DNA of 64,000 nt from Bacillota bacterium. GTDB taxonomy: Bacteria > Bacillota > Sulfobacillia > RBS10-35 > JAJYVN01. Shown here piece by piece: positions 53,475 to 62,334 of the stretch. A program made the translations under genes and the position numbers. Within the stretch, counting starts at the first letter, position 1. Every line of letters starts with the position of its first letter. The notes under the pieces are model-generated. The model did no database searches and was not told where the DNA came from. It was given only the letters and a program-made list of their open reading frames with translations. The stretch covers positions 1-64,000 of the forward strand of contig JAJZZC010000007.1 of NCBI GenBank assembly GCA_021797775.1. The letters are read 5' to 3'.

Positions 53475-54125
53475 GCGCGCTCCCCCTTTAGCGGTGCTGG
53501 GGCACCCCTGGGGCTTGCTTCGCCCGTGGCCACCGGGCTCCTCTCGCCGCGGCGGGGCGGGCTTCCGGCGTCACGCGCCGCCGGGTCGCGGCGGCGGCGA
53601 CGGTCACACACCCCATGCCACGGACGCGGTTTGCCTAGTGGGAGGCAGAGACCACGCGGGGCACGCGCTTAGGACACTCGATCGGCGCCCCTGGAGCCGG
53701 CGGCGCCTTCTCCCAGGGGCGGCGCCCACCGTGGGCTGGACCCGCGGCGGCGCCCGGGCCGGCAGCGGCCGGGGACGTGGAACGAAGGCACGGGGGCGAC
53801 ACACCGGTCGCTGCTTCCGCAGCGGCGGGCCCCACTGCGGTCAGGAACCGCTCGGGCGTTCAGGGCCGGGCTGACCCATGCGCGCACCGGTGACGGCGCC
53901 GGGCCCCGCGCCATTCCACCCCACGTGCGGCGAGGCCCACTCCCCCATCCGCCCGCTTGCATGGTATACTCGCGGGCAGCAAAGGAGCGGGAAGCGTCTC
54001 TGCGGGGCCGCCCGCCCTGCGTGAGGGTCTGGCGGCCCGTGCCGTAGCCGCCAGGTCCGCTCGGTGCCCGCTGAGGCACGCGGGCGGGGGCGTCGGAGGA
54101 ACACGCGGCGAGAGGAGGTGGCGGA
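53475..54125. other. Intergenic region between divergent ROK kinase and tatA genes
   Basis: There are 650 bases without a recognised gene. The tatA-proximal end holds an extended -10 promoter (53962-53970) and a leader of about 150 bases. Most of the rest is GC-rich, with several GGCGCC-type partial inverted repeats. Confidence 0.5.
53962..53970 (+). promoter_or_regulatory. Extended -10 promoter of tatA
   Basis: TGGTATACT matches the extended -10 pattern TGnTATAAT (5/6 in the hexamer). No -35 is evident at 17 bases, which is tolerated by extended -10 promoters. The predicted start near 53977 gives a 149-base leader to tatA. Confidence 0.55.
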
Positions 54126-54371
54126 GTGCTCGGAGACCTGCTTTCGCCGCTGCACATCGCGCTCTTGTTGATCGTCGCGCTGCTCATCTTCGGCCCGCGG
54201 CGGCTTCCCGAGTTGGGGGGCGCCGTGGGCAAGACCATCAAGGAATTCCAGAAGTCGATGAGCGAGGCGCGGGCGCAGTTATCCAGCGTCACTACATTGG
54301 ACGAGTCCAAGCCCGTCGTCGAGACGGGCCAGGCCCAGGTCGTCTCGGCCGAGAAGGACAAGCCCAACTGA
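54126..54371 (+). CDS. tatA: Sec-independent translocase protein TatA
   Basis: The 81-residue protein has one N-terminal membrane helix (LHIALLLIVALLIFGPRRLP), the FGPRRLPELGG hinge and an amphipathic helix (AVGKTIKEFQKSM), the TatA layout. It forms the pore of twin-arginine export. GTG at 54126 lies eight bases after GGAGG. TatC and TatB are not in the window. The twin-arginine-like lipoprotein at 40655-41971 could be a client. Confidence 0.9.
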   Translation: MLGDLLSPLHIALLLIVALLIFGPRRLPELGGAVGKTIKEFQKSMSEARAQLSSVTTLDESKPVVETGQAQVVSAEKDKPN

Positions 54372-55053
54372 TCGGCAGCGGCACGCGCGCCGGTCCGACT
54401 CCGCCCGGGGCCGGATCGGCGCGCTTTGAGGTTTCGGCCACTCGGTGGCAGATCCGGCGCGGCCGGGCATGGCCCGGGCCTTGCGCGGCCGCGGCCCCGG
54501 GGTGGTGTCTCGATGGACCGGTCGGGGCCGCCGGCGGGTCTTCCTGGTGGCCGATCGGAGAACGTCGCTGGCCCGTGAGCGGGGGATGGTACCGACAGCG
54601 AACCGGGGATGTCGCCAGCGCACCGAGCCGGGGGATGGCCTGGCACCTCGGCGGGGCTGATCTGGCACCCAAACCGGGACACCGTCGCACCCCCCAGCTA
54701 GGTTCGTCCCTGGCGGTGGCGGCCCCGGACAGGCTGGTGTGCCGGGCGCCGGACCGGAGTGATCCCCTGGGCCTCCGTGGGGGCGGGTGCTGGTACCAAC
54801 GGCCGCCGTCCGCTACCCGACCGGAGGGCCTCTGAGTCCCGACCCAGGGGTCAGCGCCTCGCTTGAGTGGGGCCTCCTGCCGAGGGGCGAACGGCCGGGG
54901 GACCTCGTCTCGTGCCTGAGCCCGGGCTGTCGCTGGCGGCCGGAACCCTGCCGCTTGTGCAGGGGGAGCGCTGGTCGGCAGCCGTCCGTGCCTCTGGGCT
55001 CCGACCGCAGACGGAGGGGGGGAAGGGCCGCTCTGCGGCCCGAGGCAATCTTT
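54372..55053 (+). promoter_or_regulatory. Long structured leader/intergenic region ahead of hppA
   Basis: There are 680 bases without a recognised protein. CTGCCGA (54877-54883) pairs with TCGGCAG (54975-54981), enclosing GGGGGACC-containing sequence. GGGCCGC-TCT-GCGGCCC (55025-55041) is a terminator-like hairpin immediately before GAGGCAATCTTT and the hppA ATG. The layout (aptamer-like domain, then hairpin at the RBS) suggests an RNA regulator. The identity is unproven. Confidence 0.35.
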
Positions 55054-57042
55054 ATGCTAGCCTGGTGGCCGATCATCGCTGGCCTGCTGGCCGTGCTGGC
55101 GGGCCTTTATTTCGTAAGCTGGGTCTTGAAGCACCCCAAGGGCAACGACGAGATGCAGTCCATTGCCGGCGCCATCCAGGAGGGTAGCAAGGCTTACCTC
55201 TTGCGCCAGTACCGCACGGTGCTCTATGTGGCCGTCGTGTTGTTCGTCCTCATCGGCCTCGTGTTGAACTGGCAGACGGCGGGCCTGTTCCTGATCGGCG
55301 GCTGCCTGAGCGCGATCGCGGGTAGCAGCGGGATGCTCGTTGCGGTCAACGCAAACGTGCGCACTGCGGAAGGCGCCCGGGGCGGGCTGCCGGGGGCGCT
55401 GGGCATCGCTGTCCGCGGCGGGGCGGTCACCGGTCTCTTCGTCGTCGGCTTGGGCCTGATGGGTGTCGGCGCCCTGGAGGCGGCAACGGGCAACCCTGGG
55501 GCGCTGGTTGGTTTCGGCTTCGGCGCCAGCCTGATCTCCGCGTTCGCCCGCCTCGGCGGCGGGATCTATACCAAGGCCGCGGATGTCGGCGCTGATTTGG
55601 TGGGCAAGGTGGAAGCGGGCATCCCCGAGGACGATCCGCGCAACCCCGCCGTCATCGCCGACAACGTGGGTGACAACGTCGGGGATTGTGCGGGTATGGC
55701 CGCCGACCTCTTTGAAACCTACGTCGTCACGTCGGTGGCCGCGATGTTGCTCGGCTCACTGGTCTTCCCCCACCAACCCAACGCCGTGTGGTTCCCCCTG
55801 ATCCTGGGCGCCATTTCCATCGTGACGTCGATCCTCGGGATCTTTGCGATGAACCTCGGAGGCGCGGGCACCATCATGTCCAGCCTCTACCGTGGCATTG
55901 GCGTGAGTGCGGTACTCTCTGCCGTTGTCTTCTTCTTTCTCACACGGGGCATGATGGGCTGGGTGCCGGGCAGCGGCGCCACCGGCCTATTCCTCTCGGC
56001 GCTCATCGGTCTCGGTCTGACGGTCGCGCTGATGATGACTACCGATTACTACACCTCGACGCACTACCGGCCGGTCCGCCGTATCTCTGAGGCCAGCCAG
56101 ACCGGGCACGCCACAAACATCATCGCCGGTCTCGCCATGGGGATGAAGAGCACGGCTTGGCCCGTGCTCTTCATCGTCCTGGCCATCCTGGGTGCCTACT
56201 CTGTGTCCGGCGTGTACGGCGTCGGGGTAGCCGCCGTGGCGATGCTGTCGCTGGCCGGCATGATCGTGACGCTGGACTCCTTCGGCCCCATCACGGACAA
56301 CGCCGGCGGCATCGCCGAGATGGCCGGCCTGCCTGAGTCGGTGCGCGAGGTGACCGACGCCCTCGACGCGGTGGGTAACACCACCAAGGCGGTGACCAAG
56401 GGATACGCCATCGGGTCGGCCGCCCTGGCCGCCATCGTGCTGTTCTCTTCCTACGCAAGGGAGCTGGGCCGGGGCGCCGTGGTGCCATTCACCCTGACGG
56501 ACCCACGGGTGCTGATCGGTCTCTTCCTCGGCGGCGTGGTCGCTTTCGTGTTCGCCTCACTGAGCATCGAGGCGGTCGGCCGGTCCGCCGGCCGCGTGGT
56601 GGACGAGGTGCGGCGCCAGTTCCGCGAGATCCCGGGCATCATGGAGGGCAAGGCCAAGCCGGAATACGGTCGTGCGGTGGCGATCGTGACCAGCGCCGCC
56701 CTGCGTGAGATGATCGCGCCCGCGCTAATCCCCGTGCTGGCCCCGGTCGTCGTAGGGTTCGTCCTCGGCGGGCGGGCCCTTGGCGGCATGCTGGTGGGAG
56801 CCATCGTCACGGGCCTGTTCCTCGCCATCCAGATGACGGCCGGCGGCGGCGCATGGGACAACGCCAAAAAGTACATTGAGGAAGGCAACTTTGGTGGTAA
56901 AGGCACACCGACCCATGCGGCGGCGGTGACCGGGGACACAGTGGGCGATCCTTACAAGGATACCGCCGGCCCGGCGATCAATCCGATGATCAAGATCCTC
57001 AACATCGTGGCCCTGCTGGTGGCACCGCTACTCGTGCGCTGA
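55054..57042 (+). CDS. hppA: Membrane H+-pumping pyrophosphatase, K+-independent type
   Basis: The 662-residue, roughly 16-helix membrane protein hydrolyses pyrophosphate and pumps cations. The PPi-binding region [20 protein letters not shown] to [15 protein letters not shown] lies at about 178-217. K445 in [10 protein letters not shown] replaces the alanine of K+-dependent enzymes, and T448 agrees, so K+ independence and H+ transport are expected. The ATG at 55054 has a weak GAGG SD. It is followed by a 17-bp hairpin terminator. A second, K+-dependent-type paralogue lies at 60313-62334. Confidence 0.95.
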
Positions 57043-60312: not shown

Positions 60313-62334
60313 TCATCGGAACAGGGGGGCGAAGACGAGCGCCACGATCGCCATGAGCTTGATTAGAATGTTGAGCGACGGTCCAGCCGTGTCCTTAAGC
60401 GGGTCGCCCACCGTGTCGGCCACGACGGCCGCGCCGTGCGCCGGGGTACCGCGGCCGCCGAAGGCTCCCGCCTCGATGTACTTCTTGGCGTTGTCCATGG
60501 CCCCGCCCGCATTGGCTGCGGCGATGGCCAACGAGACCCCCGAAACCAAGGCACCCGCCAGCAGGCCGGCCAGCGCCTCCCGCCCGAAGACCAGCCCCAC
60601 AACGAGCGGGAGGACCACCGCGGCCACCCCGGGCGTGGCCATCTGGGCTAGCGCGCTGCGCGTGCTGATGTCCACACAGCGCGCGTAGTTCGGCGGTTCC
60701 TCTCCGCGGAGAATGCCAGGGTGCTCCCGGAACTGGCGGCGCACCTCGGCCACCATCTCCAGCGCGGTCCGGCCCACCGCGCGCATGGCGTGGGCGGAGA
60801 ACAGGAAGGGCACCGCCCCGCCGGCCAGCAGGCCCGCCACCACAGCCGGGTGCGTCAGATCGACAACCCGCAGGCGCGCCTCCGTCGCAAAGGCGGCGAA
60901 AAGGGCGAGGGCGGTGAGCGCGGCCGAGCCGATGGCGATCCCCTTGCCCATGGCTGCCGTCGTATTGCCGACCGAATCCAGCCGGTCGGTGCAGGCGCGT
61001 ACGGCGGACGGCAGTCCCGCCATCTCCGCGATGCCCCCGGCGTTGTCGGCGATGGGTCCGTATGCGTCCACCGCCAGCGCGATAGCCGTGATGGCCAGCA
61101 TGCCTACGGCCGCCAGCGCGATGCCGTACAGCCCTCCAAAGGCGTAGGCGCCGAGGATAGCCAGGGCCGCCAGCGCCACCGGGGCGGCGACTGAGGCCAT
61201 GCCCAGGGCCAGCCCCTCGATCACGGTGGGGGCCGGCCCCACGGCCGCGCTGCGGGCCACGGCCACTACCGGGGCCCGACCCGCCCCCGTGGCGCGCTCG
61301 GTCAGGTGGCCGACGCCAAGGGCCAGGCCCAGGCCGCACGCCACCGCCCCGAACAGCGACGGCGCCCCGTACAGGACCGCCGTGGCCCACCAGGCGCCGG
61401 CCAGGAACACCAGCCCTGCTCCCCACGTGCCGAGGCGCATGGCTACCGCGGGGTCGCGCGCTGAGAGCGCGCGGACCAGCAGGCCACCACACCAGGACGC
61501 GCCGAGGCCCAGGGCGGCAAGGGCCAGGGGCAGCAGCAGGGGGGCGCCGCCGCGCCCGAGGTCCGCGGCCCCAATGGCCAGGGCAGCCACCAGCGAGCCG
61601 GCGTACGACTCAAACAGGTCCGCCCCCATGCCGGCCACGTCGCCGACGTTGTCCCCCACGTTATCGGCGATCACAGCCGGGTTGCGCGCGTCATCCTCGG
61701 GAATGCCCACCTCCACCTTGCCAACCAGGTCCGCCGCCACGTCCGCACCCTTGGTGAAGATGCCGCCGCCCACGCGCGCGAACAGGGCGACGGAACTGGC
61801 CCCCAGGGCAAAGCCGTTGACCGCGTCCAGCGTCGCGGGCCGGGCCGGATCGCCGAAGGCGAATAGCACGGCGGCGACGCCTAGCAGACCCAGGCCGCCC
61901 ACCGTGAAGCCCACGACGCTCCCGCCGTCGAACGCGACGGCGAAGGCGGCTGGGAGCCCGCGCCGCGCGGCGTCGGCGGTGCGTACGTTGGCGGCCACCG
62001 CCACACGCATGCCCGCCAGGCCGGCGAGCAGAGAGCAGGCCGCTCCCGCCAAGAACGCCTCGGCCGTCGCCGGCGTGAGTTGCGGGTGTCCGAGGCGGCC
62101 CGCTGCGACCAGCGCGGCTGCCAGGACGACGACGAACAGCCCGACGGTACCGTAGGCCCGGCGCAGGAAGGCGGACGCCCCATCGCGGATGGCCCGGGCG
62201 ACGGCGGCCATGCGCGCGTCACCGGCCGGCATCTGCCCGAGCCGGGCTGCGAGGCGCGCCGCCCAGGCCAAAGCGAGCACGCCGGCGGCCAGCGCCGCCG
62301 CGAAGTCCAGCACACCCCTGCCGGGCTGCACCAC
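60313..62334 (-). CDS. hppA: Membrane pyrophosphatase, K+-dependent type
   Basis: This 673-residue paralogue of the protein at 55054-57042 keeps the PPi site ([40 protein letters not shown]). The diagnostic position is A460 in GNTTAAMGKG, with G463, as in K+-dependent enzymes. FESY carries a Glu at the position seen in the Thermotoga Na+ pump, so Na+ transport is possible but not shown. The GTG start has GGGGGGTGAGGGC upstream. It is convergent with the dehydrogenase gene and its Ala-rich sequence differs strongly from the other paralogue. Confidence 0.93.
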   Translation of the reverse strand: MVQPGRGVLDFAAALAAGVLALAWAARLAARLGQMPAGDARMAAVARAIRDGASAFLRRAYGTVGLFVVVLAAALVAAGRLGHPQLTPATAEAFLAGAACSLLAGLAGMRVAVAANVRTADAARRGLPAAFAVAFDGGSVVGFTVGGLGLLGVAAVLFAFGDPARPATLDAVNGFALGASSVALFARVGGGIFTKGADVAADLVGKVEVGIPEDDARNPAVIADNVGDNVGDVAGMGADLFESYAGSLVAALAIGAADLGRGGAPLLLPLALAALGLGASWCGGLLVRALSARDPAVAMRLGTWGAGLVFLAGAWWATAVLYGAPSLFGAVACGLGLALGVGHLTERATGAGRAPVVAVARSAAVGPAPTVIEGLALGMASVAAPVALAALAILGAYAFGGLYGIALAAVGMLAITAIALAVDAYGPIADNAGGIAEMAGLPSAVRACTDRLDSVGNTTAAMGKGIAIGSAALTALALFAAFATEARLRVVDLTHPAVVAGLLAGGAVPFLFSAHAMRAVGRTALEMVAEVRRQFREHPGILRGEEPPNYARCVDISTRSALAQMATPGVAAVVLPLVVGLVFGREALAGLLAGALVSGVSLAIAAANAGGAMDNAKKYIEAGAFGGRGTPAHGAAVVADTVGDPLKDTAGPSLNILIKLMAIVALVFAPLFR

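Follow-up and report, generated by a model that had tools for sequence, protein, structure and literature searches.

A hairpin between a distant Shine-Dalgarno sequence and the start codon recurs before hppA in one clade of a Bacillota class and may form a split ribosome-binding site

The described systems that come closest to the leader considered here are genes 38 and 25 of phage T4, in which RNA structure shortens the spacing between the Shine-Dalgarno (SD) sequence and the AUG (from 22 nt to 5 in gene 38 and from 27 nt to 11 in gene 25), and in which destabilising the structure lowers initiation, as given in a review (PMC3014915). Within the literature reached, these two phage genes are the cases in which a hairpin bridges an SD and a distant start. 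In E. coli thrS, the hairpin is placed upstream of the SD, with repression by the enzyme, whereas no repressor is known for hppA. The thrS ribosome-binding site is divided by the hairpin, which the ribosome is reported to accept in the folded state (PMC3936740). A literature search gave no recognisable report of a split ribosome-binding site at hppA, most subscription papers lying outside the coverage of that search, and the accessible part of an RNA-structure paper (PMC8346122) holds nothing on an SD-hairpin-start arrangement.

The window analysed here, i.e. the whole stretch of 64,000 nt, carries hppA, the gene for a membrane-bound ion-pumping pyrophosphatase (55054-57042, forward strand; NF001951 and TIGR01104 above cut-off), whose start codon is the ATG at 55054. 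The gene upstream is tatA (54126-54371, forward strand; TIGR01411 above cut-off), which precedes hppA in 5 of the 5 f1 genomes that have hppA (f numbers denote families and G numbers genomes, the window genome being G000). An SD, GGAGG, is present on the forward strand at 55013-55017, with a run of G going on to 55022, and stands 36 nt from the ATG. Between the two lies the hairpin GGGCCGC-TCT-GCGGCCC (55025-55041), followed by a 12-nt spacer (55042-55053). It may be noted that this spacer holds GAGG (55042-55045), a possible weaker SD, which at 8 nt before the ATG could act as a near SD in the window genome. The 16S tail GGATCACCTCCTT is present in 7 of the 14 genomes searched, the window genome among them. 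The initial annotation of this DNA had proposed an RNA element before hppA, consisting of a larger aptamer-like structure, which it allowed might be chance, and of this hairpin next to the ribosome-binding site. The letters of the hairpin are exact as it gave them, and its recurrence in relatives, in position as well as in pairing, leads us to take it as more than chance; the larger aptamer, which is discussed below, is not supported.

Relatives of hppA at E ≤ 1e-220 are present in 34 of the 154 class genomes searched. We examined 37 leaders of the hppA clade from 13 families, including those of G101, G102, G007 and G009 and two f20 leaders; the leader of G088 (f40) and that of G012 (f5), the latter without a 5′ end, stand outside the 37. 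The order SD-hairpin-start was found in 25 of the 37 leaders and 8 of the 13 families, which is the conservation one would look for in a split site of the T4 gene 25/38 type. On dividing the leaders by family, the hairpin is present in f1 (5 of 5), f2 (2 of 2), f3 (2 of 2), f12 (3 of 3), f27 (4 of 4), f40 (7 of 7), f44 (1 of 1) and f45 (1 of 1), and no leader with this order was seen in f4 (0 of 1), f5 (0 of 1), f20 (0 of 2), f21 (0 of 1) and f46 (0 of 7). The SD of the hairpin leaders is GGAGG, or GGGGG in f40. The detector used here requires a perfect stem, 5 bp or longer, at the chosen starts and picks up 21 of the 25 hairpin leaders; the remaining 4, all from one f40 genus, were counted by eye, their arms GCATCCGAC/GTCGAGATGC having a bulged A. 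A protein tree of 44 rows was made by a quick search, and some of its forks are weak; all hairpin-bearing hppA in it fall in one 36-row clade (support 89), and the hairpin-free branches f4, f5, f20 and f21 with f46 are nested inside this clade. Such a distribution fits an early origin of the hairpin followed by several losses. G007 is represented in the tree by a fragment only, which is on a different contig from the G007 leader.

The presence of the hairpin is linked to the distance of the SD. In every one of the 25 hairpin leaders the SD five-mer nearest to the chosen start is 26-38 nt away, as against 7-15 nt in 10 hairpin-free leaders; a far SD of the T4 gene 25/38 type is thus seen in 25 of 25, the window having in addition the 4-nt GAGG at 8 nt from its ATG. 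Of the two hairpin-free f20 leaders, that of G027 carries AGGAG at 14 nt, and that of G047 carries only GGAG, without a listed SD five-mer near the start. When the hairpin is excised, the spacing between SD and start falls from 27-39 to 8-20 nt in 24 of the 25 leaders. The leftover 8-20 nt exceeds the E. coli optimum. In the exception, G090, 22 nt are left; here the script picked a farther GGAGG, although the GGGGG of its neighbours is also present. As for a structure that shortens the spacing in the manner of T4 genes 25 and 38, it is found here as predicted structure only, and in f27 and in the window (two contexts) with a low pair probability.

By analogy with these systems, we consider it reasonably probable (about 0.6) that the hppA hairpin forms a split, or accommodated, ribosome-binding site, i.e. 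that it is an aid to translation rather than a sensor of a small molecule. The GGAGG at 36 nt from the AUG of the hppA mRNA would be too distant to act directly, and folding of the hairpin at 55025-55041 would take away the intervening stretch, so that one 30S subunit could hold both SD and AUG. The 30S subunit would then bind with the hairpin folded, the folded hairpin would be expected to help initiation, and its stability may help set the amount of pump made. The likeness to T4 genes 38 and 25 is that RNA structure between SD and AUG cuts an over-long spacing (PMC3014915); the differences are that those are phage genes, whereas hppA is a chromosomal housekeeping gene with the arrangement spread over 8 families of a class, and that the hppA stems have letters mostly unrelated between families, hppA being likened to the phage genes by anatomy. 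The proposed site resembles that of thrS in being divided by a hairpin, which in thrS is the one reported to be accepted folded, except that the thrS hairpin stands between an upstream single-stranded ribosome-binding region and the remainder of the site (PMC3936740), whereas the hppA hairpin lies between SD and start. A class-wide chromosomal case with varied stems would be a natural series on the acceptance of a folded spacer by the 30S subunit, and would also let one ask why hppA needs a folded spacer.

The stems of most families have no evident sequence in common, and within families the pairing is kept while letters change. Two f12 genomes have an A-U pair where the third has G-C, which is the only compensatory double change seen within a family. 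Also, a U-A pair becomes U-G in the second genome of f3, a G-C pair becomes G-U in G002 of f1, and the bulged A of f40 is shifted by one place. On aligning 23 SD-to-start pieces with MAFFT, the hairpins of different families fail to line up, and therefore no covariation across families was counted. A lone double change of this kind counts for little, and the weight of the argument is on the recurrence as compared with the controls. In predicted folding, the window hairpin has a probability of 0.99 when the leader is taken by itself, of 1.0 in the region from -100 to +60, and of 0.21 from -45 to +15 and 0.03 from -45 to +40, the coding sequence being a competitor. The listed f27 stem is predicted at 0.00-0.60 depending on the context, two f40 leaders at about 0.35 in two contexts, and f44 at 0.24 in one. 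Pairings other than the hairpin are thus often preferred in the predicted folding of the window genome and of f27.

These values bear on the alternative that the hairpin is a regulated switch, which we regard as unlikely. Here temperature, a bound factor or an alternative pairing would open or re-pair the hairpin, and pump translation would be governed by the resulting state, with SD and start joined or with the SD hidden. In its wider form, a switch of the 'fold to turn on' kind, answering to temperature, ionic state or a bound factor, would join or separate SD and start and so meter the pyrophosphate-driven pump, and would have persisted across the class as its letters were replaced; this too we would hold only tentatively, as an unlikely case. 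A switch is possible chiefly because f27 and a part of f46 offer alternatives that hide the SD. In the f27 leaders (L014, L015, L137 and L140) the hairpin loop holds CCTC, with which GAGG of the SD can pair, and in the f46 leaders of G100, G099 and G102 (L141, L142 and L144) AGGAG can pair with CTCCT, both as judged by eye, and the low, context-dependent probability predicted for the listed f27 stem points in the same direction. However, alternatives that hide the SD are found in 2 of the 13 families only, of which f46 is without the split-site hairpin, and the variation of stem letters between most families argues against one conserved binding factor.

We then consider it improbable that the arrangement is the product of chance hairpins in G+C-rich leaders together with wrongly chosen start codons. 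Besides the high G+C, this explanation draws on the background in ordinary genes, for which the controls were taken from parts of two genomes, G053 and G000. The detector passes 16 of 262 ORFs in G053 and 15 of 192 in G000 under a looser choice of starts, and where the only SD five-mer is 22-45 nt off the control start, a hairpin lies between the two in 15 of 122 and 10 of 81 cases (25 of 203, 12.3%). Against this background, P for an arrangement seen in 8 of 13 families is about 4e-5 if the families are taken as independent, which they are not. Dinucleotide shuffles pass the detector in 0-12 of 300 trials for 23 of the 25 hairpin leaders, and in 32 of 300 for the window (G000) and 29 of 300 for G005. 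As for start codons, a start was called forced if the reading frame, followed upstream from 25 nt before the chosen start to the first stop, is free of ATG, GTG and TTG, which assumes that one of these three codons is used. By this definition the start is forced in 8 of the 25 hairpin leaders, from 5 families (f1 2, f3 1, f40 2, f12 2 and f44 1); upstream in-frame alternatives exist in the other 17, the window included, and the start assignment is therefore partly our choice. Still, chance has to account for 8 of 13 families, 5 of them having one or more leaders with a forced start, and for the absence of the arrangement from all 94 of the other hppA leaders examined. These comprise the leaders of a second, divergent hppA (60319-62292, reverse strand) and its relatives, scanned back to 160 nt (0 of 9), those of hppA orthologs from the same phylum (0 of 5) and hppA loci of other phyla used as outgroup (0 of 80, these being the best 80 of more than 591 stretches).

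Two observations on start codons may be added. In G002 (L006), ATG, GTG and TTG are absent near the SD, and CTG was assumed, which is likely the hppA start codon in that genome. In f40 (L011 and L127-L132), the first of two in-frame ATGs is in or at the 3′ arm of the hairpin and the second follows 9 nt later; the second was used as the start. Gene finders that expect a nearby SD may misplace the hppA starts in these genomes.

It is quite improbable that the hairpin serves to protect or position the 5′ end of the mRNA, i.e. acts on stability, its place between SD and start being incidental. In several relatives, e.g. in f2 and f3, TATAAT-like boxes were seen by eye some tens of nucleotides before the SD, and the hairpin may therefore be close to a 5′ end. 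But protection needs neither a strict placement between SD and start nor a link with the SD distance. Also, a scan for promoters and terminators over 54100-55100 of the window found no promoter-like site and no terminator.

A ligand-binding riboswitch over 54877-54981, whether c-di-AMP-like or new, has in its favour a perfect 7-bp closing stem and is hardly credible when the window and leader have no Rfam match, the leader folds like its shuffles, 10 comparable stems lie within the leader and two relatives have no room for the structure. The stem letters given for this structure (forward strand) are exact, CTGCCGA at 54877-54883 being a perfect complement of TCGGCAG at 54975-54981. The 64-kb window holds 697 perfect 7-bp stems that close 80-130 nt (10.9 per kb), and the predicted fold of the 682-nt leader is no stronger than those of its dinucleotide shuffles (z 0.07; equalled or exceeded by 10 of 20 shuffles). 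The c-di-AMP riboswitch family, RF00379, was brought in by the initial annotation on a faint resemblance only, with the suggestion that covariance models be run. Rfam gave 0 matches at gathering level over the whole window, and at E ≤ 10 over 54100-55250 it gave no riboswitch match, RF00379 included, and 3 weak matches (two microRNA families and one lncRNA family; E 4.6-8.6). Since there is neither an Rfam match nor excess folding nor a sign of conservation, the proposed aptamer is dropped, and this first structure is no more than chance. In an order-wide DNA search of 13 genomes, the sole match directly before the hppA of a relative, among the matches listed, is a weak one in G003 (E 0.36), and it spans leader positions 640-671, i.e. 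55011-55042, which is the SD and the second hairpin. The gap between tatA and hppA is 682 nt in the window (54372-55053) as against 232 nt in G003, 215 in G005, 165 in G001 and 132 in G002, and the gaps of the last two are too short to hold the 54877-54981 structure at its distance from hppA. This removes a false riboswitch lead at hppA.

Some features of the locus may be recorded here. The window gap is about 3-5 times longer than in the four same-family relatives; the direct repeats in the leader belong to short two-copy families only. The second hppA, with 50% identity to the first, is encoded on the opposite strand some 3.3 kb further downstream. G004 (f1, about 92% complete) is without an hppA match, and the other five f1 genomes searched have two hppA each.
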